From Devosia sp. SL43 (GTDB taxonomy: Bacteria; Pseudomonadota; Alphaproteobacteria; Rhizobiales; Devosiaceae): a DNA stretch of 64,000 nucleotides. A program made the position numbers and the translations under genes. A model generated the notes under the pieces. The model had not been told where the DNA came from and searched no databases. It saw only the letters and a list, made by a program, of their open reading frames with translations. This document shows, one piece after another, positions 12,577 through 37,956 of this stretch (positions are counted from its first letter, which is position 1; every line of letters starts with the position of its first letter). The DNA is taken from assembly GCF_021729885.1 (NCBI RefSeq), contig NZ_CP063401.1, positions 868,001 through 932,000 of the forward strand, written 5' to 3'.

Positions 12577-12902
12577 CGCGTAGACGGCACGGCGGGGCCC
12601 GATTGCAAAAGCTTGCTCACGCTCGTCGGCAAAAATGGTCCCTTGCCAGGGGCCCCGGCGATGCGAGCCGGTGGGGGACAGGAAACGCAGGCGCATTCGC
12701 CCGCTTCGGCGCAGTAGATTATGTTGTCACCAACAATGATATCGATCCCGCCGTCGCCATCATTCATCGTGTAGGTGCAGTTGGGATTTGCGTCGCACAA
12801 TCGAATAGCTGTTCGGATTTCGGTCGCCTGCACCGGTGTCAGCGTTGCCGACAAAGCGACAAACAGTCCCGAGACCAGACCTGCACACTTTATGCTGTTC
12901 AT
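12573..12902 (-). CDS. Small secreted cysteine-rich protein, hypothetical
   Basis: This 109-residue product has a signal peptide (about 1-27, cleavage after VQA-T) and six cysteines in the mature part (RLC, NPNC, IYC, GEC, AC, SC), probably forming disulfides in the periplasm. The tail is Pro/Gly/Ser-rich. It is not a family with a known function. Its stop overlaps the stop of the convergent BTAD gene by 4 bases. Confidence 0.7.
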   Translation of the reverse strand: MNSIKCAGLVSGLFVALSATLTPVQATEIRTAIRLCDANPNCTYTMNDGDGGIDIIVGDNIIYCAEAGECACVSCPPPARIAGAPGKGPFLPTSVSKLLQSGPAVPSTR

Positions 12903-22439: not shown

Positions 22440-23426
22440 TCATCGAAGAGGTCGCCTCTGTGGCATGGTGAGTGCATAAATCCGGTCGACTGCGGCCATG
22501 TTTCCGATGGCGTCATCGCGGTTCTCCATCGAGGGAATGCCCACGGACGCCGATCGGAGAAAAGCGGCAAGCTGGTAGTCGTAGGTGGTCCCACCGCCAA
22601 CCGTGTATTGGCTCAGAATTCCGTCCCGCCAAGAGCGGATGGAGTGACCTCGGTGAGGCGAGGACGGGTTGTCCACCTCGATGCACCCCTGAGCCGCCTC
22701 AATCCGCAGCCAGGGACGAAACGGAGGATCCTGGATGTCAGCGATCATGGTCGCATCGACATCCTGCTCGAACCGCAGGGTGGCCTCCATCCTCGTATCG
22801 ACGCCAGATGCCCCGACCCGCGCGGTAGCGGCTATGATTTCAGGCTCGCTGCCCATGAATGAGCGCAGCCAATGGAGCGGATAAACGCCCAGGTCCATCA
22901 TAGCGCCACCGCCCAGGGCGGGATCGTAGCGGATGTCCTCGCGATCCCACGGGATATCTACGTGAAATTCAGCCCGTATTGAGCTGACCTTACCCAGCTT
23001 CTGTCGCAGGCTAACGATATGCTCAAAGAGCGGATGGTGCCGGTAGTGAAAGGCTTCTACCAAGATCCGGCCGCAACGCTCTGCGGTTGCAAACATGGTT
23101 TCGGCTTCAGCGGCATTTAATGCCAACGGTTTCTCACACAAGACGTGCTTGCCGGCTTCAAGCGCGCGAATGGTCCACTCGGCATGATGGGACGGGGGAA
23201 GCGCGACATAGACGAGGTCTATGTCCCGATCGTCTAGCATCGCCTGATAGCTGGTGTACGCTTTCTCTATCCTGTGCAGGCTGGCAAAGGCTTCGGCGCT
23301 GTCCGCCCGCCGCGATGCAACTGCCGCTACGGTCACGTCAGCCCGACGACGGCATGGTTCAATGATCGCCCGCGGTGCGATACGCGCCGCGCCTAGGATG
23401 CCAATTCTAAGCAACGCGCCCATCAA
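22440..23426 (-). CDS. Gfo/Idh/MocA family oxidoreductase
   Basis: The N-terminal Rossmann fold has RIGILGAARIAPRAI (residues 7-21) and the family motif LCEKPLALNAAEAE (about 95-108) with the Lys of EKP. Residues 130-328 form the C-terminal sheet domain, with DLGVYPLHWLRSFMG. Such enzymes oxidise sugars or glycosides with NAD(P), often at C3. Its ATG overlaps the stop of the FGE gene by 4 bases, placing it directly in the sulfatase operon. It is one of three family members in this locus. Confidence 0.9.
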   Translation of the reverse strand: MMGALLRIGILGAARIAPRAIIEPCRRRADVTVAAVASRRADSAEAFASLHRIEKAYTSYQAMLDDRDIDLVYVALPPSHHAEWTIRALEAGKHVLCEKPLALNAAEAETMFATAERCGRILVEAFHYRHHPLFEHIVSLRQKLGKVSSIRAEFHVDIPWDREDIRYDPALGGGAMMDLGVYPLHWLRSFMGSEPEIIAATARVGASGVDTRMEATLRFEQDVDATMIADIQDPPFRPWLRIEAAQGCIEVDNPSSPHRGHSIRSWRDGILSQYTVGGGTTYDYQLAAFLRSASVGIPSMENRDDAIGNMAAVDRIYALTMPQRRPLR

Positions 23427-24388
23427 GGACGCACTTCAGGATGGCTGACGGGCCCGAAAGCTACGCGAAAGCCCGAATTGCAGCCGCCGCTATCGGCGGG
23501 GAGGGCGAGGCGCGCCGCAATGCGGTAGCGGTAGCAGTAGGTGCGGTGGCAAAGAAAACTGCCACCCTTCATCAGGACTTCGTGGCGCTCGCGAGCGGAT
23601 GAATTGCGCCTCTCGGCGCCGCTGGTGGTCGAGTGCAGACGAAAGGTCTCCGAAGTCCACTCCCAGACGTTGCCGGCCATGTCGTAGAGACCGGCACCAT
23701 TCGGCGCGAATGTCGCAACCGGCGAAGTCCCCCGCCAGCCGTCGGCGATGGTATTGTACTCGGGAAACTTGCCCTGGAAGATGTTGCAGGGCAGGAAGTC
23801 CTGGTCGTCGGGCTCGTGGTCGCCCCAAGGAAATCGCGGGTCGTCCAACCCTCCCCTGGCGGCATGTTCCCATTCCGCTTCAGTAGGCAGCCGGCCTCCG
23901 GCCCAGGTCGCAAACGCTCGGGCATCCGACCAGGATATGTGGGTGACGGGATGGTTTGCCCGTTGCCGAACGTCGCTTCCCACACCTTCCGGCCGGTGCC
24001 AGCAAGCCCCTTCCACTTTGCCCCACCAGGGCGAACGCCCGTCGATCGGGGACACCGGCCCGTTATCCCGCAGCAGGGGAATGAAGACCAGACCCCACCC
24101 AAAACGCTCGGCCTCCGTGATATGGCCCGTGTCGAGCACAAATGCGGAGAAGCGTGCGCACGTCACGGGCGCGACATCCATCTCGAAGGGAAGCAGTTGG
24201 TGGTAGGTCACCAGACCTTCGCCGTCTTGCGGTATTTCGGGCATGCTTGTCCCGGTATGGCTGGGGCCGCCAACGAAACGGGCACGCGCCGGTGGCGTGG
24301 AATCGGCAATGCTCTGCCATGACGACCGGGGCACACTGGCCGCGATCACATCCGCCCCTACCCTGCTCAGGCTCCCGCAGCAGTTCAT
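23423..24388 (-). CDS. Formylglycine-generating enzyme (sulfatase activator)
   Basis: The 321-residue protein has the FGE/SUMF1 fold: HPVTHISWSDARAFATWAGGRLPTEAEWE (split here as HPVTHISWSDARA and RLPTEAEWEHAARGG), YDMAGNVWEWTSETF, and the C-terminal GGSFLCHRTYCYRYR. Cys280 and Cys285 match the copper-binding pair of true FGEs, so it should convert the sulfatase active-site Cys to formylglycine with O2. No signal peptide is seen, so it acts in the cytoplasm. AAGGG precedes the ATG, 10 bases after the sulfatase stop; the gene then overlaps the next by 4 bases. Confidence 0.93.
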   Translation of the reverse strand: MNCCGSLSRVGADVIAASVPRSSWQSIADSTPPARARFVGGPSHTGTSMPEIPQDGEGLVTYHQLLPFEMDVAPVTCARFSAFVLDTGHITEAERFGWGLVFIPLLRDNGPVSPIDGRSPWWGKVEGACWHRPEGVGSDVRQRANHPVTHISWSDARAFATWAGGRLPTEAEWEHAARGGLDDPRFPWGDHEPDDQDFLPCNIFQGKFPEYNTIADGWRGTSPVATFAPNGAGLYDMAGNVWEWTSETFRLHSTTSGAERRNSSARERHEVLMKGGSFLCHRTYCYRYRIAARLALPADSGGCNSGFRVAFGPVSHPEVRP

Positions 24389-24398
24389 TTCGGGCCCT

Positions 24399-25961
24399 TC
24401 AGCCGACGCTGGTCTTGAGAGAACGGGCTGAAATTCCGGCGCGAACCTGCAGGCTGTCGTGCTCAGGAACGTCGCCGATTTCGCTCATGTGATTGTCGAG
24501 CTTGCCAAGCATCGTGAGGAAGACGTCGGCGTAAGCCGGATCGTTGGCCAAGTTCACCAGCTCGCAACGATCGACCTCACAGTCAAAGAGCTCCCACTCG
24601 GGCGCTGCACCGACCGGTCGCGCGCCGAGCTGCCCCAGGTCATCATTGTACCAGTAGATCAGCTTGTAGCGCTGGTCACGCACGCCATAGTGCGCACGGG
24701 CCTCATGGATCGCGTCGTTGTTCATCCAGTAGCGGTGATAGGCGATCTGGTCCCAATCGTCGGGGGTACGGCCCTCCAGCACAGACCGCAGCGACTTCCC
24801 CTGCATGTAGCTAGGGACAGGCAGGCCGGCATAGTCGAGGAAAGTTGGAGCGAAATCGACATTGCCCGCCAGATCGCCCGACACGCTGCCGGCCGAGATT
24901 GCCGCGGGGTATCGGCAGAGGAAAGGCATCTGGTAGCTTTCCTCATACATGAACCGCTTGTCGAACCAGCCATGCTCGCCCAGGAAAAAGCCCTGGTCGG
25001 AGGTGTAGATAACGATGGTGTTCTCGGCCAGGCCGAGTTCGTCCAGGGTATCAAGCATGCGGCCGACGCCATCGTCGATCGCCTGAACCGTGCGCAGATA
25101 TCGCTTGAGGTAACGCTGGTATTTGAATTCTGCGAAACGCTGCGGGTCGTCGAAGGCAAACCTCTCACCCGTTTCGGCGCAGATCACCGTGATGCTATTG
25201 CCGGGCAGGAGGTCCGGGATCTTCCGCATGGCGAATGGCTCAAGCATCCGATGGCCTGCACGCTCTGCCCCACCTTCGGGCTGCACCAGGGCAAGGTCTT
25301 CCCACAACAGGTCCGAACGAACCCGCATCTTGGCTGCTGCGGCGGCGGCCCGGCCTTCGTAGTTGTCATTGAAGGTCTCGGGCAGGGGAACGTCCTCGTG
25401 CTGCCAAAGGTGCCCATAACGTGGGTGGTACTGCCAATTCCGGTGGGGCGCCTTGTGGTGGCACATCAGGAAGAAGGGCTGATCCTGGTTGCGCTTTATG
25501 AAGTCGACCGACATGTCCGTAATGATGTCGGTCGCATAGCCGCTGACACGAGATACTCCGTCGGATGAGATGAACTTGGGGTCCCAATAGTCCCCCTGCC
25601 CGGGCAAAACCGTCCATTCATCAAACCCGGTAGGTTCATGGGGTCTGCCCTCCCCGAGATGCCACTTGCCGAAGATGGCCGTGCGATAGCCTCCGGAGCG
25701 AAGATGCTTGGCGACGTTGGGAAGGCGGTTGTCGATATGGGTGTCGAGCGTGGTCACGCAGTTCACGTGGTTGTGCGTGCCAGTAAGGATTGCCGCGCGT
25801 GACGGTGTGCAGATCGAGTTGGAAACATAAACCGCGTCGTGCCGCATGCCCTCCTTCGCCAGGCGATCAATGTTGGGCGTATGATTGATGCCAGAACCAT
25901 AGGCGCTAATGGCGCGGGCGGCGTGATCGTCGGCCATTATAAAAATGATGTTCGGGGTCAT
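24399..25961 (-). CDS. Type I sulfatase (formylglycine-dependent), cytoplasmic
   Basis: From ATG 25961 (520 aa) the protein begins MTPNIIFIMADDHAARA with the metal-binding Asp pair at 11-12. Cys51 is in CTPSRAAILTG, the C-x-P-S-R site that becomes formylglycine. TSDQGFFLGEHGWFDKRF (about 330) adds metal and sulfate ligands. Length fits the family. No signal peptide is present, which is notable because most sulfatases act outside the cytoplasm. The FGE gene follows at once, and the sugar ABC transporter genes precede it. The substrate is probably a small imported sulfated sugar or glycoside. Confidence 0.94.
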   Translation of the reverse strand: MTPNIIFIMADDHAARAISAYGSGINHTPNIDRLAKEGMRHDAVYVSNSICTPSRAAILTGTHNHVNCVTTLDTHIDNRLPNVAKHLRSGGYRTAIFGKWHLGEGRPHEPTGFDEWTVLPGQGDYWDPKFISSDGVSRVSGYATDIITDMSVDFIKRNQDQPFFLMCHHKAPHRNWQYHPRYGHLWQHEDVPLPETFNDNYEGRAAAAAAKMRVRSDLLWEDLALVQPEGGAERAGHRMLEPFAMRKIPDLLPGNSITVICAETGERFAFDDPQRFAEFKYQRYLKRYLRTVQAIDDGVGRMLDTLDELGLAENTIVIYTSDQGFFLGEHGWFDKRFMYEESYQMPFLCRYPAAISAGSVSGDLAGNVDFAPTFLDYAGLPVPSYMQGKSLRSVLEGRTPDDWDQIAYHRYWMNNDAIHEARAHYGVRDQRYKLIYWYNDDLGQLGARPVGAAPEWELFDCEVDRCELVNLANDPAYADVFLTMLGKLDNHMSEIGDVPEHDSLQVRAGISARSLKTSVG

Positions 25962-26028
25962 CACCAAGCTCTCGCAAAACTGAACAAAATCTAATGAGAC
26001 TGGCTCCGTCAATTGACGGGGCCAGCGT

Positions 26029-27069
26029 TTAGGGTGCTGCGTTGCGGATGGCCAAACCGTTCGCGTCGAAGAGATGGGTGCGACCGCTCAGGGCGAAAGC
26101 GATCGGAGAGCCGGCCTTCGCCTCACTGCCGGGCTCCGATCTGGCGACCAGTTCCTGACCCCATGACGTCTGGAAGTAGATGAACTCGGCGTCGCCAAGC
26201 TGTTCCACCACAGTCACGGTGCCGCGCAGCGGGCCATCCGCGGATACGGTGAGGCCATCAGCCCGGACGCCAAGCGTCTTGGCCCCAGTTGCCATATCAG
26301 TCGGCTTCGAGCTGTACGGAAATGCGCCATCCCTGAGCTCGAGGAAGTTCATCTTCGGACTGCCGATGAACCCCGCCACAAAGATGTTGTCGGGTCTCTC
26401 GTAGAGGTCCAGCGGTTTGCCGATCTGTTCGACCCGGCCGTCGCGCAGCACAACAATCTTGTCGGCCAGCGTCATAGCCTCGACCTGATCGTGGGTGACA
26501 TAGATCATCGTCGACCCTTCAAGCTGCGTGTGCAGTTTGGCGATCTCGAGACGGGTGGCGACACGCAGTTCGGCGTCAAGATTCGACAATGGCTCGTCGA
26601 ATAGGAAAACCTCAGGTCGACGCACAATCGCACGCCCGATCGCAACGCGTTGGCGCTGTCCACCCGACAAAGCCTTTGGCTTACGCTCTAGGTAGTCCTC
26701 CAGACGCAGGATCCTAGCGGCCTCGTCGACACGCCGCTTTACTTCATCCTTGGGCGTTCCATTCATGAGCAACCCAAAGCCCATGTTTCGCTCGACGGTC
26801 ATGTGGGGATAAAGCGCGTAGGTCTGGAAGACCATCGCAGTCCCACGCTTGGATGCATCAATGTCATTGACCCGGCGGTTGCCGATGGCGACGTCGCCGC
26901 CGGAGATTTCCTCAAGGCCGGCGATCATCCGGAGCAGCGTGGACTTTCCGCAGCCTGAGGGGCCAACGAAGACGCAGAACTCCCCTTCGGCGATGTTGAT
27001 ATCGACGCCCTTGATCACCTGGACAGCGCCGAAATTCTTCTTGACGTTACTCAGTATTACGCTGGACAC
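26029..27069 (-). CDS. Sugar ABC transporter ATP-binding protein (UgpC/MsmK-like)
   Basis: This 346-residue ATPase has Walker A GPSGCGKST (about 38-46), the signature LSGGQRQRVAIGRAIVRRP (about 134), Walker B VFLFDEPLSNLD, the H-loop YVTHDQVEAM, and a C-terminal OB/TOBE region (about 240-345) seen in carbohydrate importers. It energises the two permeases encoded just upstream. The sulfatase gene follows after a 67-base gap. Confidence 0.93.
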   Translation of the reverse strand: MSSVILSNVKKNFGAVQVIKGVDINIAEGEFCVFVGPSGCGKSTLLRMIAGLEEISGGDVAIGNRRVNDIDASKRGTAMVFQTYALYPHMTVERNMGFGLLMNGTPKDEVKRRVDEAARILRLEDYLERKPKALSGGQRQRVAIGRAIVRRPEVFLFDEPLSNLDAELRVATRLEIAKLHTQLEGSTMIYVTHDQVEAMTLADKIVVLRDGRVEQIGKPLDLYERPDNIFVAGFIGSPKMNFLELRDGAFPYSSKPTDMATGAKTLGVRADGLTVSADGPLRGTVTVVEQLGDAEFIYFQTSWGQELVARSEPGSEAKAGSPIAFALSGRTHLFDANGLAIRNAAP

Positions 27070-27084
27070 GGCTATGCCCTCCGA

Positions 27085-27963
27085 TTAGCCCTTCACCGCG
27101 CCGGCCAGGCCGTCAACGAAGTAGCGTTGCAAGAAAAGGAACAGGATGATGACGGGGATGATCGCGATCGCCGATGCTGCGGTCATTCCGCCCCAGTCAA
27201 CGAAGTGCTCGCCACGGAACGAATAGATGCCGACAGAGAGTGTGCGCAACTCCGGGTTTGCCAGCGTGACCACTAGCGGGAGCAGGAAGTCATTCCAGGC
27301 CTGCAGGGTCTGCATGACGATGACCGTCACCACGATGGGCATGGACAGCGGCAACATGACGTACCAGAAGGTCTTGAATGGCCCGACGCCATCCATGCGG
27401 GCGGCTTCCTCGAGCTCTTTGGGCACTTGGGTGAAGTAACCGGCAAACAGAAGGGTGAATACGACGATCGAGTGACCACTGGTCGCCAGTGTTAGCCCCC
27501 AGAGCGACTGCGACAACCCGAACCGGGTGAGCAGCTCGACGATCGGGATAATCGTGAATGCCTGAGGAATGAAAAGGGTGAAGGCCATCAAACCGAAGAT
27601 CGCCCACTTGCCCGGAAGCGGCCGACGCCCCAGGACGTAGCCCATTAGCGCGGACGACATCGTGGTGATGATCACGGACCCGACCGTGACGACCAGCGTG
27701 TTGAAGAAATACTTTGAGATATTCGCCTGCACCCAGGCCCTTGAGTAATTCTCGAACGTCGGCATTTCAGGGATAAGTCCTGAATTGCGGAACAACTCGT
27801 CGTTCGACTTGAAGGATGCAGCCAGCATCCAGAGCAGCGGATAGACCCAGATGGCGCATATGCCTGCGAGAACGACCGAAGTCAGGATGCGTTTCCCGCG
27901 GGGGCTAAACAGCGATTGGCGTTGAGCCGCCACCCGCGAGGAAGAAGCAGCGATATCAGCCAT
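27085..27963 (-). CDS. Carbohydrate ABC transporter permease (MalG-like)
   Basis: The 292-residue protein has six membrane segments and the EAA loop EELEEAARMDGVGPFKTFWYVMLPL-type sequence (seen as EEAARMDGVGPF, about 205) that contacts the ATPase. The N-terminal segment and tail YFVDGLAGAVKG are typical of MalG-class subunits. It overlaps the end of the upstream permease gene by 8 bases, and the ATPase gene follows after 15 bases. Confidence 0.92.
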   Translation of the reverse strand: MADIAASSSRVAAQRQSLFSPRGKRILTSVVLAGICAIWVYPLLWMLAASFKSNDELFRNSGLIPEMPTFENYSRAWVQANISKYFFNTLVVTVGSVIITTMSSALMGYVLGRRPLPGKWAIFGLMAFTLFIPQAFTIIPIVELLTRFGLSQSLWGLTLATSGHSIVVFTLLFAGYFTQVPKELEEAARMDGVGPFKTFWYVMLPLSMPIVVTVIVMQTLQAWNDFLLPLVVTLANPELRTLSVGIYSFRGEHFVDWGGMTAASAIAIIPVIILFLFLQRYFVDGLAGAVKG

Positions 27964-28894
27964 TGGAGACCTCCCGGCGGCGGCTACGAACCTTCTGGAT
28001 GGCGACGCCCTGAAGGATAGTCAGACCCATGATAGCCAGGCCGAACAGGACGCCAGCGGCGGACGCGTAGCCGAGGCGCGGGAACTGCCCTGGACTCGGC
28101 GCGAACGCGGTGCGGAAAATGTAGACCTCCATCACCTCGGAAGCGAAGAATGGCCCGCCGCCCGTGGTTGCCTGAATGAGAGGAAAGACGTTCAGAGCAG
28201 CGATCGAGGAGATGAGCGCTATCACCGCGGCAAAGGGCGCTATGATTGGCAGGACGATGTGGAGGATCACCTGCCAGGTCTTCACGCCATCCAGCTTTGC
28301 AGCCTCATAGAGTTCGTTCGGCACGGTCTGGAGCGCCGCGAGCCAATAGATGAGGGTCACCCCGGTCCACTTCCAGACGAAAATGATGGCGAGCGACCAC
28401 ATGACCAGGTTCGGATCGCCGAAGAAATCCATCGGTCGCGACAGCATGCCAAGGTTCACGAGCAGACCATTGATAGGTCCATTGAACGGGCTGAGCATCA
28501 GAACCATGACGATGGCGATGACCGCCACCGGCGTCACGACGGGAAGGAAGATCAGCGTACGGAATAACGTCGAAAGCCTGAGCAGACGGTCGTTCAGAAC
28601 AATCGCGAAGATCAGGCTCAAGAACATCTGGAGCGGGACCGTCGAGACGGTGAAGGCAAAGGAACGCGCAAAGGCGTCGCGGAAGAATTTGTCGTTCAAG
28701 AGCTCCTGGAAATTCCGCAGACCAACGAACGTCCCGCTATCCTCGAATCCGGACCAGTCCAGGAGCGAGTAGTAGTTTGATGCAAAGAGCGGCCACGCCA
28801 CGAAAACACCGAAAATCAGCAGCCCCGGCACGATGAAAAGATAGTCTATGCGTGCGGCCCAGATGCGATGAAGCAGACGATCAGCGCGTGTCAT
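27956..28894 (-). CDS. Sugar ABC transporter permease (MalF-like)
   Basis: ATG 28894 follows AAGGAGG by 7 bases; the extra 48 codons upstream are not credible. The 312-residue protein has six membrane segments and the EAA motif ELYEAAKLDGVKTWQVILHIVLP-type loop (EAAKLDGVKTWQ, about 205). It is the first gene of an eight-gene minus-strand operon (permeases, ATPase, sulfatase, FGE, dehydrogenase, VOC, UPF0303), driven from the region containing the operator-like element at 29053-29096. Confidence 0.93.
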   Translation of the reverse strand: MTRADRLLHRIWAARIDYLFIVPGLLIFGVFVAWPLFASNYYSLLDWSGFEDSGTFVGLRNFQELLNDKFFRDAFARSFAFTVSTVPLQMFLSLIFAIVLNDRLLRLSTLFRTLIFLPVVTPVAVIAIVMVLMLSPFNGPINGLLVNLGMLSRPMDFFGDPNLVMWSLAIIFVWKWTGVTLIYWLAALQTVPNELYEAAKLDGVKTWQVILHIVLPIIAPFAAVIALISSIAALNVFPLIQATTGGGPFFASEVMEVYIFRTAFAPSPGQFPRLGYASAAGVLFGLAIMGLTILQGVAIQKVRSRRREVSNG

Positions 28895-29052
28895 GACGTG
28901 ACCTCCTTCGCCTTGAGGCTGGCCGCGGCCAAGCGGTCGCAATGTGGCCCGCGCCATGTCGTCGGCATGTTGAGCATCTACTCCTCCGTCGTGAGGCGCC
29001 GAACTTCCGCCGAGCTGCCGTCCTCTCATGGCTAGCACCGGCAGCTATTCGA

Positions 29053-29096
29053 GAATAATGCAAAGATGCGCGGCTCCGATGTGAAATGATTATCAC
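29053..29096 (-). promoter_or_regulatory. Operator-like element A and TTATTC box of the sulfatase operon
   Basis: On the minus strand GTGATAATCATTTCACAT (29079-29096) is followed, 26 bases on, by CATTATTC ending at 29053. The same layout occurs at 36448-36491 and 34359-34402. The element contains a GTGA-N8-TCAC dyad. TTCACA lies near the -35 position and CATTAT near -10. It lies between the operon and the divergent LysR gene. Function is inferred from conservation. Confidence 0.7.
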
Positions 29097-29116
29097 GCGT
29101 ACCTCCTCTGCCCATT

Positions 29117-29131
29117 TGTGTTGATTATCAC
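29117..29131 (-). promoter_or_regulatory. Second partial copy of the operator-like element
   Basis: TGTGTTGATTATCAC on the plus strand repeats TGATTATCAC of element A exactly, 35 bases away. It lacks the TTATTC box. Its position closer to the LysR start at 29188 fits an autoregulatory site, but this is inference. Confidence 0.45.
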
Positions 29132-29187
29132 TTCATCTGATCGGTAAACCCAATGACAGGGCTTGGTGATACGTATACCTTATCGGC

Positions 29188-30138
29188 ATGCTGGACCTGA
29201 TGACACACCTGATGCGCTTGCGCACTGTCGCGGAAGCGGGGAGCATGCGCCGGGCCGCCGGCATACTCAGTGTGACGCAGCCCGCGCTGACCCGCTCGAT
29301 AGCGCAGCTAGAAAGCCACTTCGGCAAACACCTCCTTGTTCGACATTCAAGAGGGGTCGTCCTTACGGGGTTCGGCGAGCGCGTCGTATCTTCTGTTCAA
29401 AGGCTGCAGCGACACTGGGAGCTGGAAGAGCGCAGCCTTGAAGATGACAAGTCCGTTCTGTCCGGCACCTTGCGTGTCCGGGCCGGTCCACTCTGGCGAG
29501 CAGTCATCCTGCCTGCAGTGGTCGCGGAACTGCACCGCCACCATCCTGACCTCGTCGTCGAGATACAGAATAACGGGTCGGGCCTGAACGACACGTTGAT
29601 CGACCTCGTCGAGGGACGGTGCGATGTGGTCTTCGGAGGTGTGCAAGTCGTCGAGGAAAACAACCAGCGCCTTATGGTGCGCAACTACACCACCATCGTG
29701 GACCGGGTTGTTGCACGCGAGGACCATCCGATTTTCGGCGGGCTGCAAAAAGGGGAAAACCTGGATGCTAGTGCGCTGCTCAACTATCCATGGCTGGTTT
29801 ATACGGCAGACCCTGTTTATGAGCTGCAAACCATCCACGCCTGCGTTGAGCGCCTCGGATCAGCACCCAGGATCCGTGCCAGCTGCGAATCCTTGATCGC
29901 GACAATTGCAATGCTGCAGAAGGGCGACTACCTCTGCATTCTTCCGGACCGTGCGGTTGCCAATACGATGAACCCACGAATCGTGCCGGTCCCCGTTGAA
30001 CTTGGTCGCCGCACGATCGTCACGGGTGCTGTATTCCGTGGTGAGATGGTTGACTGGCCGCCGCTCAGTGGTCTGTTGCGCATCTGCGAAAAACACATCG
30101 GCAGCGAGGGTGATTTCGCTCCTTCTCCGCCGATGTAG
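29188..30138 (+). CDS. LysR family transcriptional regulator of the sugar locus
   Basis: The 316-residue protein has an N-terminal winged HTH (residues 5-64: EAGSMRRAAGILSVTQPALTRSIAQLE) and a LysR substrate-binding domain (about 92-300, ending in a low-complexity tail). It is divergent from the sulfatase operon across about 290 bases that contain two copies of an operator-like element. It converges on a dehydrogenase gene 30 bases away. No clear ribosome-binding site precedes ATG 29188; TATACCTTAT lies 10-15 bases upstream, so the message may be leaderless. A likely role is sensing a sugar intermediate and controlling the flanking units. Confidence 0.91.
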   Translation: MLDLMTHLMRLRTVAEAGSMRRAAGILSVTQPALTRSIAQLESHFGKHLLVRHSRGVVLTGFGERVVSSVQRLQRHWELEERSLEDDKSVLSGTLRVRAGPLWRAVILPAVVAELHRHHPDLVVEIQNNGSGLNDTLIDLVEGRCDVVFGGVQVVEENNQRLMVRNYTTIVDRVVAREDHPIFGGLQKGENLDASALLNYPWLVYTADPVYELQTIHACVERLGSAPRIRASCESLIATIAMLQKGDYLCILPDRAVANTMNPRIVPVPVELGRRTIVTGAVFRGEMVDWPPLSGLLRICEKHIGSEGDFAPSPPM

Positions 30139-30168
30139 TCACGTAGCGTCAGCGCCCTGATTGAACGG

Positions 30169-31344
30169 TCATGAACAGCGGCGCCACGACACTTCCTTTG
30201 ACGAGGTTATGCAGGCGTCTATGAACATCAGGCCGGCCACGCCGTCATCCACTCCTGGAATCTGTCGCGTCAATGGGTTGGGGCTGCAACCGGCGATCCT
30301 GGCCGCCACGATCTCGGCAAAGTCACTATAGATATTGGCAAAGGCCTCAACAAAACCGCCCGGAAAGGCTCCGGTGCGCTGGACGGCTTTCTTGGTTAGG
30401 GGGTGCAGCGTTGGTAGCCCCACCATGCGTGTTTCGGCTGGCTGACCCTGGCGGGTGATCTGAAGTTCGTTGGCATTGGCCTGGTCCCAGACGAGACCGG
30501 CTTTGTCACCGTAGACCTCGATCGAAAACCGATTCACGGCACCCGAGGCTGCCTTGCTGGCGATAATGCTGCCCCTGGCTCCATTGCCCAATCGTATCAG
30601 GACGGATGCGCTGTCGTGCACCATACGTCCGGCGATCGCAGCGCCGAGGTCGGCGAACACATCGGTGACTTCTTCGCCCGTAATGTACCGGGTCAGATGG
30701 TGCGCGTGACTGCCAATGTCCGAAAGAGCGTGGCTCTGCCCCCCGCGCGATGGGTCGAGCCGCCACTTAAGGCGGGACGGCATCTGATCCGGGTCGGCTT
30801 CTACCATCGTACCCAGCGCACCCTGGAGGTAGGTAACGACGACCAGGTGCACTCGTCCGAGTTCGCCTGCAGCCACTGCCGCCCGCGCCTCCCTGACCAT
30901 CGGGTAGCCGGAATAATTGTGAACCAGGCACAGCTCGGACCCGCTTGCCCGTGCCACCTCCGCGACACGCCTTGCATCCTCAAGCCGTGTTGATAGCGGC
31001 TTCTCACAAACCACATGGAAGCCGGCCTCGAGCGCCTTGATGGCATAAGGCACGTGGGTGTCGTCGGGGCTCATGATGGCGATAACATCAACCCTGTCCT
31101 CGCGTGCACCCTCCCCGGCAATCATCTCATCGACTGACGCATATGATCGCGAAATGCCGAGCTTGGCCGCGTTGTCTTCCGACCTCTCGGCATTCGAGGA
31201 CAAGACCCCCGCAACAAGCTCGTAATAGTCGTCAGAGCGCGCGGCCAACCTGTGAATGGGCCCGATAAGGCTCGAACCACCACCACCAATTACGCCCAAC
31301 CTCAGCCGGCGACCCAGCATAGCAATGACCGCGTTCTCGCTCAT
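30169..31344 (-). CDS. Gfo/Idh/MocA family oxidoreductase
   Basis: The 391-residue protein has a nucleotide-binding loop LRLGVIGGGGSSLIG (about 13-28), the motif HVVCEKPLSTRLEDA (about 113-127), and DIGSHAHHLTRYITGEE in the C-terminal domain, a pattern of the larger family members (about 380-400 aa) acting on sugars or inositols. A downstream ATG (residue 9) is also possible. It is the last gene of the minus-strand unit beginning at 32458, 31 bases after the preceding dehydrogenase, and converges on the LysR gene. Confidence 0.9.
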   Translation of the reverse strand: MSENAVIAMLGRRLRLGVIGGGGSSLIGPIHRLAARSDDYYELVAGVLSSNAERSEDNAAKLGISRSYASVDEMIAGEGAREDRVDVIAIMSPDDTHVPYAIKALEAGFHVVCEKPLSTRLEDARRVAEVARASGSELCLVHNYSGYPMVREARAAVAAGELGRVHLVVVTYLQGALGTMVEADPDQMPSRLKWRLDPSRGGQSHALSDIGSHAHHLTRYITGEEVTDVFADLGAAIAGRMVHDSASVLIRLGNGARGSIIASKAASGAVNRFSIEVYGDKAGLVWDQANANELQITRQGQPAETRMVGLPTLHPLTKKAVQRTGAFPGGFVEAFANIYSDFAEIVAARIAGCSPNPLTRQIPGVDDGVAGLMFIDACITSSKEVSWRRCS

Positions 31345-31375
31345 TCAACTCGACCCCATACTTCATTTTCACTGC

Positions 31376-32458
31376 TCACTGCGCGGCCATCAGTTTCATC
31401 ATCTCGGCGAACAGTTCGATATCCTGGCGAGCATCCTTGATATCGGTCTTGGGGCGACGGCCCATCACCACGCAATCATGGAAGTATTCCCACTCGATGA
31501 TGAAGCTGTCCTGCCTACTCTGGTAGCTGCTGCGCGTTGAAACACCTGTTGGCGTATTGGCCTCGGTGACCGTCAGCCGCGCGGGCTGGTGGCGAATAAA
31601 GGTCGTATCGTAGTCGACGCGAACCTGGCGCTGCGGCGTGAAAACCTCAAGATTCACGTCAAAGCGCGCAATCTGGTCGAAACCGGTCTCGAAGTGGCAG
31701 ACGAAGTCGCCATAGTCAAAGACGGCGGAAATGAACCGGCCGCCGCGGCGGTACAACGCCGAAAGAACGCGTTGCGGCCGACCGATCAGTTCCCGCATTG
31801 CCGAGATATCGTGCGAGGAGAGACCCAGGAGCATGTTGTAGATGCCGGCCATCGTGTTTTCGTCTGTGCCAATGGCGGCTTTCAACGCCGCCGAACTGAT
31901 CGCATCGAGGCGCTCTTTCTCCGCATCGGGCACGTCATCCCCGCGGATCACCGCCGTGATGGAAGACAGGAAGGCCGGGCTCTGGCCGACGATGTCCCTG
32001 ACTCGGGCAAAGTTGATCTCGCCCCGTAGGGGCTCAATGAGTGCCACCGCTTCTTTGAAGGCGCCCGCGTGACGCCGCATATAGCCCACCAGGGCGATAC
32101 AACCGCTCTCCTGCTCTGCAGATTGGAGTTCGCTTGCCTCCTCGAGGGTGAAGCACATCGGCTTTTCGATAAGCACGTGTTTACCGGCGCGCATGGCCTG
32201 CAGTGCGTGTGTGGCATGCAGTGCGCTCGGGCTCGCCACCAGCACGGCATCCACCGCGGGGTCGTTCAGCAGCGCCTCGAACGAAGCATAGGGCGTCGCT
32301 CCGGGAATGGTCTCGGCAAGCCTGATGGTCACGGATGGCGAGGCATCGTGCAAAGCTGCAATGAACAGCTTGTCCGGCAGATGCCGAAAGGCGGGAATAT
32401 GCAAGGTTTGGACGGCCTGGCCGCAACCCACAATGCCGATCCCTAGGCGATTGGTCAT
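31376..32458 (-). CDS. Gfo/Idh/MocA family oxidoreductase
   Basis: The 360-residue protein begins with the Rossmann motif GIGIVGCGQAVQTLHIPAF (split as GIGIVGCGQAV and TLHIPAF) and has HVLIEKPMCFTLEEA (about 94-108). The C-terminal region has the usual mixed sheet. The two adjacent dehydrogenases may form a pair with different substrates or act together. The gene lies 326 bases after the binding-protein gene, separated by a strong hairpin. NAD(P) preference is not predictable with confidence. Confidence 0.9.
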   Translation of the reverse strand: MTNRLGIGIVGCGQAVQTLHIPAFRHLPDKLFIAALHDASPSVTIRLAETIPGATPYASFEALLNDPAVDAVLVASPSALHATHALQAMRAGKHVLIEKPMCFTLEEASELQSAEQESGCIALVGYMRRHAGAFKEAVALIEPLRGEINFARVRDIVGQSPAFLSSITAVIRGDDVPDAEKERLDAISSAALKAAIGTDENTMAGIYNMLLGLSSHDISAMRELIGRPQRVLSALYRRGGRFISAVFDYGDFVCHFETGFDQIARFDVNLEVFTPQRQVRVDYDTTFIRHQPARLTVTEANTPTGVSTRSSYQSRQDSFIIEWEYFHDCVVMGRRPKTDIKDARQDIELFAEMMKLMAAQ

Positions 32459-32784
32459 GCAACAAGTTCCTCCTCGGCCTTTGGCTGATGCTCATCTGGC
32501 GGTTGGTTCGGCGCCCGACGCACGGGGCGAGGCGAACTGCGCGTTGCCGCCGCGCGTGCCTTCAACCACCTTGGCTCCTCCGAGCCAGCGACCGTGTTTT
32601 CGTGTTCAGCCCGTTGGACAAGCCTAGCCACCCCAGCCAGGCACGGACAATGCAAAGAAGTCCCGAAGATATCGGTGCGGTTATCACCAGAGGAGCTTTG
32701 TCGAGTCGACCGCACTACAGGGATGAACCGGCGACACGATATCGCCGGTTGCAGCGGCTTAGCGGCCGTAGATTCGTCAGACGC
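32459..32784 (-). other. Gap after the binding-protein gene, with one hairpin
   Basis: This 326-base gap has no credible gene. It holds the perfect inverted repeat at 32726-32750 near the upstream end. No copy of the 18-bp operator with TTATTC box was found here, so the dehydrogenase pair may be read through from upstream or use another promoter. Confidence 0.5.
32726..32750 (-). terminator. Intergenic hairpin after the solute-binding protein gene
   Basis: AACCGGCGA (32726-32734) and TCGCCGGTT (32742-32750) form a perfect 9-bp stem with a 7-base loop, 35 bases after the stop at 32785. There is no T tract, so it may act as a 3' stabiliser or partial terminator that keeps the binding-protein message more abundant than the dehydrogenase message. 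Confidence 0.6.
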
Positions 32785-34293
32785 CTAGATGTGATCCACG
32801 GCGGGGTCCCAGTCGGGGAACACGAGGTCGGAACGGTTCACATTGGCGCCTTCGGCCTTTGCTGTGGCGAAGGCAGTGTCGAGTGCCACATTCATGGCCT
32901 CCTTGAGCACCGTCAGGCTCTCTTTCACGCCTGACAACTGGCCAGAATACAGACCCTGCACCGTTTGCGCTAGATTTGGGGTCGGCGCAACGTAGAGGCG
33001 CGCGACATCCACGAAGCCCGCATTCTTGGCATAGGGGTTGGGCGACACACGAACCTGATCTTCCTGCAAGGCCAGGATGCCGATCGAGCGCTCGGAGAGC
33101 GTCGCCCGTTGATTGGCTTCCGGGAACGCGGCCGGGTTGCCAGGCGATGCCACGCTTGCCCACTGGGTCTGCCCCTCGAGTGTACCCAGAATTTGGAATA
33201 CGTCCGCGGCGTATTGCGGGTTCTTCGCCTTGGCGTTGATGAAAAGCAAGTCGCCAATGGCGATCACCGAATTTGTATAGGTCTTGCCATCCTTGCCGGC
33301 CGGAGCGGGCGTGGCGGCATAGCCGAAGTCGAAGTTGGGGTTTTCGGATTCCCACAGCGGCACGTTCCATGGTCCCTGCAGGATCATGCCGGCACCGCCT
33401 TGCGGCATCATGGCGCGAGCTTGTGGTGCAGACATACCCATCAGACCCGGGAATGCGCTGCCATCGTCGCGGATAGCCAACAACAGCTCGACAGCGCCGA
33501 CAAATTCCGGGCTATCGACAACTATCTCGCCTGTGTGGAAGTCGACCCCGGAAGCAAAGCCGGCCGCAGAGTTGCCGCATGCCCTGCCCGCTCTGGCAGC
33601 CAGGCTGGTCACGGCGTCCGACCAACGGTTCGGCTGGTTTCCTCCTTCGATCCAGCCGTACATTCGACCCTTCGAATTGGTGGTAATCTGCTGTGCAGCG
33701 GCGCGGAACTGATCCCAATTGAGCGGATTGTCTGGTCCTGGGGTGAACTCGGTCAGGGCCATCGCTTCCTTGTTGAACAGCAGCAAGGAACTGCTGCGCC
33801 GGTCGCCGGTATAGGGTAGCCCATAGGTCTTGCCGTCGATGACGTTGACACCATCAATGAAGGCGCCTGCTGGAAACCCAGCCTTCCAGTTCGCGAAATC
33901 GGGGATCAGATCGTCGATTGGCTGCACCCAGCCCGACGCTACGGCGACAGAAGGCGGCATGCCGTTCGGAAGGATGAAAACGTCCGGCGCGGTGCCATTG
34001 CGGACACCAAGCGGCACCACGGTGCCGATATCGTTCCAGGTCAGGCCGTCGAACACGACCTCGATGCCACGGGCCTTCGAATACTCGGCGAAGAACTTGT
34101 TGTAGAATACAGTGTGCAGGTCGCCGATATCCAGATAGCGCAGAGGACCGTCAGCAGGCGGCAGGTCACTTGTTGCCGCTGGTATCCAGCTCTCCTGTCC
34201 CCAGCTGGGGGCGACCAAACCAGCAAGCGCCAGCGCGCTGGTAGATGCAAGAAATGCGCGGCGCGACAAGCCGCCGCCATGATTACCCGACAT
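32785..34293 (-). CDS. ABC transporter substrate-binding protein with Tat-type signal
   Basis: The 502-residue protein starts MSGNHGGGLSRRAFLAS, a twin-arginine signal (SRRAFLA) with hydrophobic stretch and an SWGQ cleavage region. The mature part is a class I sugar-binding protein (YNKFFAEYSKARGIEVVFDG, ARMMPQGGAGMILQGPWN-like, seen as AMMPQGGAGMILQG). It should capture the sugar for the permeases at 27085-28894, encoded elsewhere in the locus. AGGGAGG precedes the ATG. Its own promoter carries operator-like element C, and a hairpin follows the gene. Confidence 0.92.
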   Translation of the reverse strand: MSGNHGGGLSRRAFLASTSALALAGLVAPSWGQESWIPAATSDLPPADGPLRYLDIGDLHTVFYNKFFAEYSKARGIEVVFDGLTWNDIGTVVPLGVRNGTAPDVFILPNGMPPSVAVASGWVQPIDDLIPDFANWKAGFPAGAFIDGVNVIDGKTYGLPYTGDRRSSSLLLFNKEAMALTEFTPGPDNPLNWDQFRAAAQQITTNSKGRMYGWIEGGNQPNRWSDAVTSLAARAGRACGNSAAGFASGVDFHTGEIVVDSPEFVGAVELLLAIRDDGSAFPGLMGMSAPQARAMMPQGGAGMILQGPWNVPLWESENPNFDFGYAATPAPAGKDGKTYTNSVIAIGDLLFINAKAKNPQYAADVFQILGTLEGQTQWASVASPGNPAAFPEANQRATLSERSIGILALQEDQVRVSPNPYAKNAGFVDVARLYVAPTPNLAQTVQGLYSGQLSGVKESLTVLKEAMNVALDTAFATAKAEGANVNRSDLVFPDWDPAVDHI

Positions 34294-34358
34294 GTAGTCC
34301 TCCCTTTGACCCCGAGCGTTGTCGAGGTATCGCTACGCTATCCGGTGCAGACATGCGT

Positions 34359-34402
34359 GAATAATAGAAAGAGTCTGAGGCGCGATGCGCGCAGCTTATC
34401 GC
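34359..34402 (-). promoter_or_regulatory. Operator-like element C and TTATTC box before the binding-protein gene
   Basis: On the minus strand GCGATAAGCTGCGCGCAT (34385-34402) is followed, 26 bases on, by TATTATTC ending at 34359. TATTAT is a good -10 sequence. The box lies about 66 bases before the ATG at 34293. The spacing matches elements A and B exactly. Confidence 0.7.
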
Positions 34403-34449
34403 AATGATCGGCTGATGCGGCTGCGTCGGTCACAGCCCCAGTAGGCTTG

Positions 34450-35295
34450 TTAGAGCTCGCGGATGCGAATGTTTCGCCACCGACAACAGGCATCGCGACC
34501 CCAGCGATCCTTGCCCAGCCCGGGATCATTGTCGTGGACCTCGAAGGCGATGTGCCCCTCCGGCCCCAGAAAATCGGCGACCGCTTCGGCGTCGTAGTTC
34601 AGCGCCTGCATCGCTGCCAGGTCGATAGCGGCGATTCTGAGGTCGTTGATCCACACTTCCGCGGTGGGCTTGGCACCAGCAATCCTTATGCGGAACTCGT
34701 TCCAATCCAGGAACCGCCAGGTGGACAGGAAGTCGGACACATCTGCCGCGTAGGTCAGGCGGTCGCGTTTCTCCGGTGTCATCGACGCGACGGTCCCGCT
34801 GCTGGTGTCTTCATACAGACTTATCGGTCGACCCTCGGCATCGTAGTTTGCGTTGACGGCAAACGGCGCGGCAGCCCACCCGCCAATGCCATTGCCATAG
34901 AAACCGCCGATTGCCCCTGTCCGGCGATGATCGAGCAACACCTGCAAGCCATGAAAAGTATGGGCTCGCTTGCGCAGCATGATTCCAGTATCTGCCGGCC
35001 AATCGGGGTTGGCCTCGAACATGAGCTCGAAGTCGCCATACTTGCGCTCGGTCACCAGGTAGCCGCCCCAACCGCTGCCGGGGCTATCCTGCCGGCCGAC
35101 GATAACTCCGTCCTCCACGGTCCAGACCGCCGGGTGCTTGGCCGCCTGCTCGTTATAGTCGGCAGGAAAATGGTCTGGTGCTTTTTCCTGGACAGTCGGA
35201 CCGCCTGGCCACATTTCACCATAGGTTCGCGGCGTCGCGAACCAGCCCGTGAGGTCGACACCGTTGAAGATTGACGTGAAGCCGTTATCGCCCAT
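34450..35295 (-). CDS. DUF1080 (3-keto-disaccharide hydrolase-type) protein
   Basis: The 281-residue protein begins GFTSIFNGVDLTGW, the DUF1080 signature, with TVEDGVIVGRQ, YGDFELMFEANPD, SGIMLR-like sequence (TGIMLRKRAHTFHGLQVLLD) and a closing WRNIRIREL. The fold is a concanavalin-like sandwich. Some DUF1080 proteins cleave glycosides after oxidation to 3-keto sugars. No signal peptide is seen, unlike many relatives, so it probably acts in the cytoplasm with the dehydrogenases of this locus. It lies 49 bases after the isomerase gene. Confidence 0.9.
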   Translation of the reverse strand: MGDNGFTSIFNGVDLTGWFATPRTYGEMWPGGPTVQEKAPDHFPADYNEQAAKHPAVWTVEDGVIVGRQDSPGSGWGGYLVTERKYGDFELMFEANPDWPADTGIMLRKRAHTFHGLQVLLDHRRTGAIGGFYGNGIGGWAAAPFAVNANYDAEGRPISLYEDTSSGTVASMTPEKRDRLTYAADVSDFLSTWRFLDWNEFRIRIAGAKPTAEVWINDLRIAAIDLAAMQALNYDAEAVADFLGPEGHIAFEVHDNDPGLGKDRWGRDACCRWRNIRIREL

Positions 35296-35344
35296 CAGTT
35301 CCTACCAATGTGAGCGACGCACTTGGCCACCGATTTCGTCCTCA

Positions 35345-36217
35345 CTACTGCCGGCCGAGGCTCAAGCGCGGACGCAGCCACTCGGCCGCCACGCGGGCGC
35401 TCTCCGGCACGGTCGGCTGGTCCGCAATATCCACCTCGACGACGAACCACCCTTCGAAGGACCCAAGGGCCTTGATAGCACCCTCGAGATCGATGCTCCC
35501 CCTGCCCGGTTCGGTCCAAATGCTCGCCTTGTTGGCAGCGGTATAGGTCATCCCCTGATCCGCAACCGGCTTGCGATAGTCCTTGATATGCACCGCTCCT
35601 ATCCGTCCGGAATGACGCAGGATGAAATCGGTCAGGTCGGCACCGGCCCAGCTGAGGTGGCCGGTATCCGGACCCACGAGAAGGTCTTTGGCGCTTATTC
35701 GATTCAGGATGAAGTCAGCCTCGTCTCCCGTCTCGATGCGCGTGCCGATGTGCGGATGCAGGCAGGGAACTATTCCTTCGCTCACCATTGCTGAAGCGAC
35801 CTTCGCTAGGCCCTCCACGATACGAGACAGGCGCTCTTCGCTGCCGCCAACACCGAGCCCCGGCTTTTCCGTCCGTTCAGGGGCAACTCCGAATGCTTCT
35901 GCTATGAATACGCGATCAAGCCCGAGGCGGGCATGATCGCCGGCCAGGCGCCTTGCTGTGTTGATTGTGTCCGGCAGCTTTTCGGTGTCGGCAAAACTGG
36001 CCTGGAAATATCCCGGGGCTGGCACGAGGTCATACTGCTTGAGGAGCGCAAGATAGTCTTGTGGCGTGCTGCCGACAGGAATTGCCGAATGGATACCGTC
36101 GTAGCCGGTATCTCGAACAACAGAGAGTATCTCGGTCAGCGGCGGCGCTGCATCGGATCTGAAGCCTTCGGGGGTAAAGTAGAACGAGAGGGGGTTGTAG
36201 GCCATTTTTCTGGTCAT
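35345..36217 (-). CDS. Sugar phosphate isomerase/epimerase (TIM barrel, AP endonuclease 2 family)
   Basis: From ATG 36217 (behind GGAG) the 290-residue protein has a metal-binding TIM barrel: ILSVVRDTGYDGIHSA near 30, CLHPHIGTRIE (about 155), VGPDTGHLSWAG (about 188), IGAVHIKDY and FVVEVD at the C-terminus. His, Asp and Glu in these motifs are candidate metal ligands. Relatives isomerise or epimerise sugars, and some cleave 3-keto-glycosides. It is the first gene of the unit from promoter B, followed by DUF1080. Confidence 0.9.
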   Translation of the reverse strand: MTRKMAYNPLSFYFTPEGFRSDAAPPLTEILSVVRDTGYDGIHSAIPVGSTPQDYLALLKQYDLVPAPGYFQASFADTEKLPDTINTARRLAGDHARLGLDRVFIAEAFGVAPERTEKPGLGVGGSEERLSRIVEGLAKVASAMVSEGIVPCLHPHIGTRIETGDEADFILNRISAKDLLVGPDTGHLSWAGADLTDFILRHSGRIGAVHIKDYRKPVADQGMTYTAANKASIWTEPGRGSIDLEGAIKALGSFEGWFVVEVDIADQPTVPESARVAAEWLRPRLSLGRQ

Positions 36218-36383
36218 TGAGTGCACTCCGGCGATTGAAGAAGTGGGGCATGTTCGCATGTTCTGGGATGTGAACATGCTTGGCGCGGCCGGCGCGCGAA
36301 GTGGTGGTCGACTCCGCGAAAGCCAGCACGCCCCGTACCTGACCTATGCTACCGTGGTAGGCGGCAAATTTTGTGCCTCTCTG

Positions 36384-36415
36384 AAAGGGCTTTCTCACTG
36401 GTGCCAGCGCCCTTT
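36384..36415 (+). terminator. Possible terminator-like hairpin with T run
   Basis: AAAGGGC (36384-36390) pairs with GCCCTTT (36409-36415) and an inner CTGG/CCAG stem is possible; the plus strand then continues with a T run. No plus-strand gene ends just upstream, so it may instead be a 5' leader structure of the minus-strand unit. Confidence 0.4.
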
Positions 36416-36447
36416 TTTGCTCAAACTAGCCGAAGCCCACCATGCAA

Positions 36448-36491
36448 GAATAATGCAAATAGTTCCCTAGGCTATGCGAACACCTTATCGC
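36448..36491 (-). promoter_or_regulatory. Operator-like element B and TTATTC box of the isomerase unit
   Basis: On the minus strand GCGATAAGGTGTTCGCAT (36474-36491) is followed, 26 bases on, by CATTATTC ending at 36448. It contains a GCGA-N8-TCGC dyad. The 13-base AGAATAATGCAAA at 36447-36459 is identical to 29052-29064. TTCGCA near -35 and CATTAT near -10 give a plausible promoter, about 230 bases before the ATG at 36217. Confidence 0.7.
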
Positions 36492-36899
36492 CCGTAACCT
36501 GCGGACGAGCCACTTGCGAGTGGCCCGCGCCACCAAACCAAACCGGTTACCTCCGCAAACAAAATCGTTGGAACCCGTAGAATTGGGTTTGAACCTGCCG
36601 CCGTTGCGATAAATCAGTCGAAGCCTTGGATACTAACGGCAAACTTGGTCTTGGCTTGCGCCACGACTACCGCGCTGGACCGGGCGAGTGCGCGTGTCAC
36701 CCAGGAGCCGTCGAGGGCGTTGGATCAGAGTAAAACCAGGACGTTGGTGAATATCACCACACCCGTGTCCTCTTCGATCGTCATGCCGCCCATTTTGACG
36801 TCAATCGTTCAACAGCGGAAATGGAAAAGCGCCCCTGACTTTGAGGATTGTAAGGACGAACATCCGTGCACCAACGTCCGTCATATCCGCCTCTCCCGT

Positions 36900-37823
36900 C
36901 TAGTCTAGAAAGTCTAGGCCCCGGTCCCAGTAGGGCACGTTGCCTACTGCGCTCACCAGATGGTCGACAAACGCCCGAACCTTGCCAACGTCGATCCGGC
37001 CCGGAGGCATGACGGCATAGAAGGACGGCTCCAGCACTTTCCAATCGCATAGCAGCGGGATGAGTGCTCCCGATTTCAGATGGTCCGAGGCTATGAATGT
37101 CGGAGCAAGAGCCACGCCGACGCCGGCGACCGCCGCCTTGACCAGCGTCTCGCCATTGTTGCTACGAAGTCTGCCAGCCACTCGGACATTCTCGGTTTCA
37201 CCGTTCCGGTCAAAACTCCAAGTGCCCCTTCGCGCCAAATAGTCGTACACGAGACACTGGTGCTGCTCGAGATCGGTTGGACTCTGGGGAGCACCGTTTG
37301 CATCGAGGTAAGCAGGAGACGCGCAGACGATCATGCGCGCCGGCCCCAGATGGCGCGCCAACAAGGTGGAATCTTCAAGGCGTCGGATCCGGATGGCGAT
37401 GTCGTAGCCTTCCTCCACGACGTTGACCGTTCTGTCGTCCAGCGTGAGTTCAACGTCCACATCGGGATAGATGCAAAGAAACTCGCTCACAATATCGCTG
37501 AGATGAAGCACCCCGAACGACATTGGTGCGTTTATGCGCAACGTCCCTTTCGGCGACGCGGTCGCGCCCCTGATGTCCTGCTCGGCACCTTCAAGAAGAC
37601 CGAACAGGGTCGATGCCGTCGAGGAGAGAGTACGGCCGGCCTCGGTGAGGCTGAGCCGCCGCGTCGTGCGGTTGAACAGTTTCGCGCCAAGCTCTTTTTC
37701 GAGATCAGCCACATGCTTGGTGGCGAGTGGTCTCGAAATCCCGAGCTTGTCCGCTGCCTTGGCGAAACTGCCCTGGGACGCGATGGTGACGAAGGTCCTC
37801 AGCGAGACAAGGTCGCGGATCAT
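36900..37823 (-). CDS. LysR family transcriptional regulator
   Basis: The 307-residue protein has a winged HTH (residues 4-62: GSFAKAADKLGISRPLATKHVADLEKELGAKLFNRTTR) and a type 2 periplasmic-binding effector domain (about 90-290). It belongs to the CrgA/DmlR-like branch by its TTRRLSLTEAG transition and PMSFGVLHL segment. It is divergent from the isochorismatase-like gene across 133 AT-rich bases, so it likely controls that gene and the cytochrome behind it. The effector is unknown. Confidence 0.91.
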   Translation of the reverse strand: MIRDLVSLRTFVTIASQGSFAKAADKLGISRPLATKHVADLEKELGAKLFNRTTRRLSLTEAGRTLSSTASTLFGLLEGAEQDIRGATASPKGTLRINAPMSFGVLHLSDIVSEFLCIYPDVDVELTLDDRTVNVVEEGYDIAIRIRRLEDSTLLARHLGPARMIVCASPAYLDANGAPQSPTDLEQHQCLVYDYLARRGTWSFDRNGETENVRVAGRLRSNNGETLVKAAVAGVGVALAPTFIASDHLKSGALIPLLCDWKVLEPSFYAVMPPGRIDVGKVRAFVDHLVSAVGNVPYWDRGLDFLD

Positions 37824-37956
37824 GGGTTGCTCTCGAGCTCATTACTATTCAGCCATATGAAATAGTATATTAGATTTCCTCTGAATTGTTATCAAACAGA
37901 AAGTGGCGGAATGTTGTCTCCTGCGATTTGAACATCGCTTTGCAAGGAGACCTAAA

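Follow-up and report, generated by a model that had tools for sequence, protein, structure and literature searches.

Three gene groups on the minus strand of a 64,000-nucleotide stretch of Devosia sp. SL43 (NCBI RefSeq assembly GCF_021729885.1, contig NZ_CP063401.1, positions 868,001 to 932,000, or C1:868001-932000 in our genome searches; hereafter the window) share a promoter build some 64 bases long, and a LysR-type regulator whose gene lies among them (29188-30138) likely binds the 21-bp dyads of these promoters and would activate all three units together with an inducer. We put the probability of this reading at roughly 0.82. The regulator gene lies on the plus strand, divergent from the first unit, and its product carries both domains of a LysR-type protein (PF00126, E 2.6e-16; PF03466, E 8.5e-22). 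An earlier sequence-only reading of the window had named this gene as a candidate regulator. That role is strongly supported, as relatives of the gene adjoin the same promoter build, an independent profile finds the three sites, and the build co-occurs with the LysR across genomes; the relatives' promoters and the profile likewise support its proposal of one regulator for a split sulfatase and sugar locus.

The same reading had placed an 18-bp operator on the minus strand at 29079-29096 (site 1), 34385-34402 (site 2) and 36474-36491 (site 3), each offset by 26 bases from a TTATTC box (29079 to 29053, 34385 to 34359 and 36474 to 36448), and had noted 13 bases, TTTGCATTATTCT, common to sites 1 and 3. 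These placements, the offset and the shared bases were all confirmed. The sites are real, but 18 bp proved too short: the conserved element is an odd dyad of 21 bp, GYGAT-N11-AT(C/A)GS, which has the T-N11-A form of LysR-type sites (Table 1).

When the whole genome (4,264,986 bases, 4.26 Mb) was searched, the 18-mer consensus GYGATAA-N6-CRCAT gave four matches; the fourth (C1:681943) has no TTATTC and lies across the start codon of a gene that Pfam assigns to DNA polymerase III alpha. The composite GYGATAA-N9-AT-N20-TTATTC has three exact matches, namely sites 1-3, all within 7.5 kb, and is therefore absent from unrelated promoters of this genome. Allowing up to two mismatches added three matches, one of them a partial tandem copy in the locus, and the composite pattern read backwards had none. 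By itself the dyad occurs often (673 matches per strand at no more than one mismatch), so that the specificity lies in the composite. Both patterns were fitted to the three sites, and the independent test is the profile from other genomes described below.

Relatives of the LysR protein were found in 13 of the 75 genomes of the genus at E <= 1e-30 (this genome included; in genome G002 the gene is split between two frames), in a further two of the 136 genomes of the family at E <= 1e-60 and, at E <= 1e-55, in one more genome of an order sample of 397 (G479, from another family, the closest at 56%). This amounts to 15 other genomes and 16 loci, genome G022 having two. The promoter build stands beside the LysR gene in all 16 and consists of a 21-bp dyad NNNAT-N11-ATNNN, 14 bases, (G/T)CATT, and TA after 22 or 23 bases; it is thus kept in relatives that retain the locus. 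The three window sites fit the dyad consensus across these loci, GYGAT-N11-ATCGC. In 14 of the 16 loci, two of which (L019 and L020) are identical, the dyad begins 1-4 nt from the lysR start as matched; it lies 55 and 63 nt away in L024 and L025, and 91 nt away for site 1 of the window. Overlap with the start of the regulator gene is found in the window at a further dyad, 29166-29186. In locus L100, a dyad without a CATT box (6176-6219) faces lysR 84 bases from its start, with the target dyad 63 bases away; this may possibly be a separate autoregulatory site.

The independent profile, R1, is a sequence-only profile built from 15 promoters beside LysR relatives, none of them from this genome, with L020 left out of the training as identical to L019. 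At E <= 10 and with 150 of 417 first-look candidates scored, R1 returned exactly three sites in this genome and nothing else, at 28.2, 21.2 and 17.4 bits (E 5.8e-6, 8.5e-4 and 0.0136), and these are sites 1-3. Across the 136 family genomes, for which 37 candidates were scored per genome under stricter filters, all 15 genomes with the LysR (14 at E <= 1e-60 plus G002) have an R1 match at E < 1e-5 and none of the other 121 does. In 14 of the 15 the strong match is a training promoter (in G046, one identical to it), so that this half of the comparison is built in, while the absence from the 121 is not; weak partial matches (E 0.0019-0.019) occur in six of these 121. In the order sample, where 12 candidates were scored per genome, the strong matches (best E 5.8e-6 or less) come from the four LysR-carrying genomes, and weak matches (E 0.0016-0.0198) come from 12 others. 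A profile of reversed promoters found nothing in the 136 genomes at E <= 0.02 and nothing in the 16 loci at E <= 10.

The surroundings of two of the weak matches in the order sample were inspected. One, in genome G478, lies within a gene. The other, in genome G238 (L111 1501-1565; 19.0 bits, E 0.0069), is full length with every spacing exact, reading GCGAT-N11-ATCGA, 14 bases, TCATT, 22 bases and TA, and a LysR gene, 26% identical to the window's and facing a short-chain dehydrogenase gene, has its start codon one base from the dyad. This is a single weak-scoring case, although position at a LysR start played no part in the search, and it suggests that the build may be a LysR promoter code wider than this subfamily.

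Among the 14 other genomes of the family that have the LysR, R1 also gives one or two extra matches near its gene in eight. The eight loci, fetched because R1 showed more than one match there, hold 10 non-training promoters that reach E < 1e-4, eight of which precede SBP_bac_5 genes and two of which precede ATP-binding cassette (ABC) permease genes; eight weaker matches (E 0.0014-0.46) were left out of the counts. The regulator thereby appears to serve two or three separate promoters in 9 of the 16 LysR genomes, the window's included. As far as these matches indicate, it is common in the subfamily for a single LysR to face two or three promoters of this build, as it does in the window. Weaker dyads at L104 1159-1291 and L103 10313-10347 precede genes that by eye resemble a further sulfatase type; in L104 such a gene forms a divergent pair with a binding-protein-like gene.

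With the 15 training promoters, the 10 further ones and the three of the window, the geometry of 28 promoters could be compared. The AT-N11-AT spacing, and with it the T-N11-A form, is present in 28 of 28, 13 of which lie outside the training set, a count that is partly built in for the training promoters, whose dyads were placed by eye (a GCATT anchor guided this in five loci without a GYGAT first half). CATT stands at its fixed place in 27 of 28, the exception being site 2 with TATT, and TA lies at position 63 in 26 promoters and at position 64 in two, one of which is site 3.

This geometry bears on where the promoters begin. The sequence-only reading had taken TTATTC as the -10 element with the operator over the -35 region, in which case, with TTATTC or TATTCT as the -10, LysR would bind the dyad and either repress or activate from a class II position. 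In sites 1 and 3 TATTCT agrees with TATAAT at four of six bases, and its offset from the dyad is exact. However, the stretch varies in relatives (TTTGTT, TTATCT, TTTCTC, TTTTCG) and is mostly poor as a -10 there, and the dyad would be centred near -40, whereas LysR recognition dyads of the T-N11-A form usually centre near -65 and overlap the divergent lysR promoter, with a second contact zone at about -35 (PMC4834489, in excerpt; excerpts of PMC6018408 and PMC11739112 give the same general scheme). What is constant within one base across relatives is CATT, which overlaps the first two bases of TTATTC, and a TA 22 bases after GCATT, the latter in 28 of 28 promoters. On these two constants, TTATTC would lie close to -35 and the dyad would be centred close to -64. 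TTATTC thus probably lies near -35 and not at -10, the earlier assignment is probably wrong, and we regard the repression or class II scheme as unlikely.

Taking the conserved TA as the beginning of the -10 element would put the dyad centre at -64, the GCATTATTC element at about -39 to -31, in agreement with the LysR scheme just cited, and the predicted transcription starts near 29022, 34328 and 36416. With a start near 29022, permease 1 must begin at the ATG at 28894, preceded by GGAGG. In four of six loci, alignment with relatives begins only at residue 51-58 of the longer frame; in the other two it begins at residues 12 and 21. Under the proposed activation by LysR, a tetramer would occupy the dyad as recognition site and contact the GCATTATTC element as activation site in the -35 zone; with an inducer, probably derived from a sulfated sugar, it would recruit RNA polymerase to the -10 element that starts at the conserved TA. 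The dyad abutting the lysR start would allow the protein to repress its own gene. Binding, activation, autorepression, the inducer and the direction of control at the three units are all predicted from this arrangement.

Several observations weigh against this account, beside the partly built-in dyad count. The first half of the dyad is loose, with GYGAT in 10 of the 15 training promoters and 5 of the 10 further ones (3 of 3 in the window). The predicted -10 elements are far from TATAAT, the TA of site 3 sits one base further off, and a scan of the site 3 region for the sigma-70 consensus found no promoter. Taken alone, site 2 is weak (17.4 bits, E 0.0136); its score is of the order seen in stray matches in other genomes, and some of these are higher (G478 at 20.2 bits, inside a gene, and G238 at 19.0 bits). 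R1 finds no further site in G002, G022 (two LysR genes, two sites), G024, G030, G045, G046 or G479. Finally, the second LysR locus of G022 (L031) is without the sulfatase that otherwise accompanies the regulator.

A regulator from elsewhere was also considered, given that the sequence-only reading had offered GTGA-N8-TCAC as an operator for a LacI- or GntR-type factor, with the LysR a bystander. The inner even dyad is present as GTGA/TCAC in site 1 and GCGA/TCGC in site 3, and in Oceaniglobus (L013 8997-9785) the place of the LysR gene, divergent from the same transporter and sulfatase operon, is taken by a GntR/UTRA regulator gene. Against this, the even dyad is broken in site 2 (GCGA/GCGC), relatives keep the odd dyad and not the even one, which lies inside it as a by-product, and the build tracks the LysR across genomes; the Oceaniglobus locus (21 kb, no LysR match) has no R1 match at E <= 10. 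The even operator is not supported, and a regulator of this kind is very improbable. The Oceaniglobus locus itself reads as a regulator swap, GntR/UTRA for LysR.

A second LysR gene (36900-37823) adjoins site 3 and could be proposed as the regulator instead, but its product is 25% identical to the first, the gene is divergent from one of the isochorismatase family (region 36900-38670), and the profile finds no copy of the promoter build in the intergenic region of this pair, all of which leaves it scarcely credible in that role. The possibility that the motif arose by chance or marks promoters of this genome in general, as the commonness of the dyad alone might suggest, can be set aside almost entirely, given a composite found three times in 4.26 Mb and within 7.5 kb, an independent profile that agrees with it and an empty reversed control. 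A sigma-54 reading of TTGCAT, seen by eye in sites 1 and 3, was dropped for want of a GG at the right distance.

Table 1. Promoter elements and genes of the LysR locus (window coordinates)
Feature	Position	Strand	Remarks
Site 1 dyad GTGATAATCATTTCACATCGG	29076..29096	-	GTGAT-N11-ATCGG; precedes transporter/sulfatase unit; profile match
Site 2 dyad GCGATAAGCTGCGCGCATCGC	34382..34402	-	GCGAT-N11-ATCGC, perfect GCGAT/ATCGC; precedes binding-protein gene
Site 3 dyad GCGATAAGGTGTTCGCATAGC	36471..36491	-	GCGAT-N11-ATAGC; precedes isomerase-like/DUF1080 unit
Partial second dyad copy	29111..29131	-	GTGAT-N11-ATGGG; 35 bp upstream of site 1
Dyad at lysR start codon	29166..29186		GTGAT-N11-ATCGG on plus strand; predicted autoregulatory site
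Site 1 GCATTATTC element	29053..29061	-	Contains TTATTC; predicted activation site/-35 zone
Site 2 CTATTATTC element	34359..34367	-	Alignment with relatives' build
Site 3 GCATTATTC element	36448..36456	-	Alignment with relatives' build
Site 1 predicted extended -10	29029..29037	-	TG-N-TAGCCA; conserved TA position
Site 2 predicted -10	34335..34340	-	TAGCGT
Site 3 predicted -10	36423..36428	-	TAGTTT; spacing one base longer than at sites 1 and 2
LysR-type regulator gene	29188..30138	+	Predicted regulator of the three units; PF00126, PF03466; relatives adjoin same build
ABC permease 1	27956..28894	-	PF00528; ATG after GGAGG taken as start, not upstream GTG at 29038
ABC permease 2	27085..27963	-	PF00528
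ABC ATPase	26029..27069	-	PF00005
S1-type sulfatase	24399..26012	-	CTPSR motif; PF00884, PF16347
FGE-sulfatase domain protein	23423..24388	-	PF03781; possible sulfatase-maturing factor
GFO/IDH/MocA oxidoreductase, site 1 unit	22440..23426	-	Pfam
Solute-binding protein (SBP_bac_1), extracellular, site 2 unit	32785..34293	-	Pfam
GFO/IDH/MocA oxidoreductase, site 2 unit	31376..32458	-	Pfam
GFO/IDH/MocA oxidoreductase, site 2 unit	30169..31344	-	Pfam
Xylose-isomerase-like TIM barrel protein, site 3 unit	35345..36277	-	PF01261
DUF1080/3-keto-disaccharide hydrolase family protein, site 3 unit	34450..35295	-	PF06439

The genes behind the three promoters (Table 1) are taken from strand and spacing as probably one transcript per group, and their content points to a sulfated sugar as the likely substrate of the locus. 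A glyoxalase-family protein (Pfam) is also encoded downstream of site 1. The nearest solved structure to the sulfatase is the N-acetylglucosamine-6-sulfatase (GlcNAc-6-sulfatase) 5g2v, and the exo-L-galactose-6-sulfatase 7lha is also near. In five relatives' genomes (G002, G022, G024, G030 and G479), lysR is divergent from a single operon of binding protein, two permeases, ATPase, sulfatase and FGE protein, whereas in the window the binding-protein gene is separated from the permease genes by lysR and two oxidoreductase genes, and both separated parts carry the promoter build. A scan of genome contigs with the binding protein yielded only three loci. In its 14-base spacer, site 2 shares 12 of 14 positions with the promoter of the G479 binding-protein gene, against 1-7 of 14 for the others. 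For the site 3 unit no counterpart was found within 20 kb around the G479 LysR. An inverted repeat, AAAGGGC...GCCCTTT, lies in the site 3 leader (36386-36420), accompanied by a run of T on the plus strand; no rule of a terminator scan fitted it, and no Rfam family reached its gathering score in 28500-37000.

In eight other genomes the LysR lies near a transporter of the SBP_bac_5 type, together with a sulfatase 72-81% identical to the window's (in L100 seen only partly, at the locus edge). A sulfatase with 64% or more identity to that of the window is present in 13 of the 14 LysR loci inspected over 15 kb or more, a set without G045 and G046. The LysR copy in L031 faces, with the same promoter build, a distant sulfatase-like gene of 23% identity (12183-12248). 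In L032 (G002, D. algicola; 12161-13055) lysR matches as two adjacent pieces in different frames and the sulfatase is also in two pieces, yet the dyad and the CATT box are present, possibly reflecting a decaying regulator or sequence errors.

Compared with known systems, the promoters resemble those of classical LysR activators with divergent targets in their T-N11-A dyad, in a centre near -65 if the predicted -10 holds, in overlap with the lysR start and in a second contact zone around -35 (PMC4834489, in excerpt). They differ in that the -35 zone is described there as non-conserved in sequence whereas the CATT box is strongly conserved here, and in that two or three separate promoters are apparently served in the nine genomes counted above. 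GbpR of Agrobacterium, a LysR regulator of the sugar-binding protein gene chvE (PMC4086400, in excerpt), is likened here by description only; it shares control of a periplasmic sugar-binding protein by a LysR, and differs in that no sulfatase is named in that excerpt. The choline-sulfate regulators of TIGR03418 are alike by name, as LysR regulators of a sulfate-ester pathway, but the window's LysR scores 47.4 bits against a cut-off of 324.8 and is not a member; it also falls below the cut-off of every NCBIfam model among 25 of the 51 matched. The S1 sulfatases 5g2v (GlcNAc-6-sulfate) and 7lha (L-galactose-6-sulfate) are among the best sequence matches of the window's sulfatase. No LysR regulon with sulfatases was found described in the literature searched, most subscription papers lying outside its reach. 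The regulator is of a known kind, and its predicted regulon combines a link to an S1 sulfatase with an activation element that varies unusually little.

These findings connect a subfamily of LysR regulators with one kind of S1 sulfatase in loci that have either of two transporter types, and describe a split operon whose separate parts all bear the same promoter build. The 64-base signature is usable for searching, and the conserved activation-site sequence makes the second-site requirements of LysR testable on 28 natural promoters. It is conceivable, though short of probable, that the rigid cassette (dyad, N14, CATT box, N22 and TA) is a readable code, that the subfamily runs sulfated-sugar loci with it and enlarges its regulon by copying the entire cassette ahead of genes that leave the ancestral operon, and that distant LysR proteins, such as that of G238, use it for other pathways.

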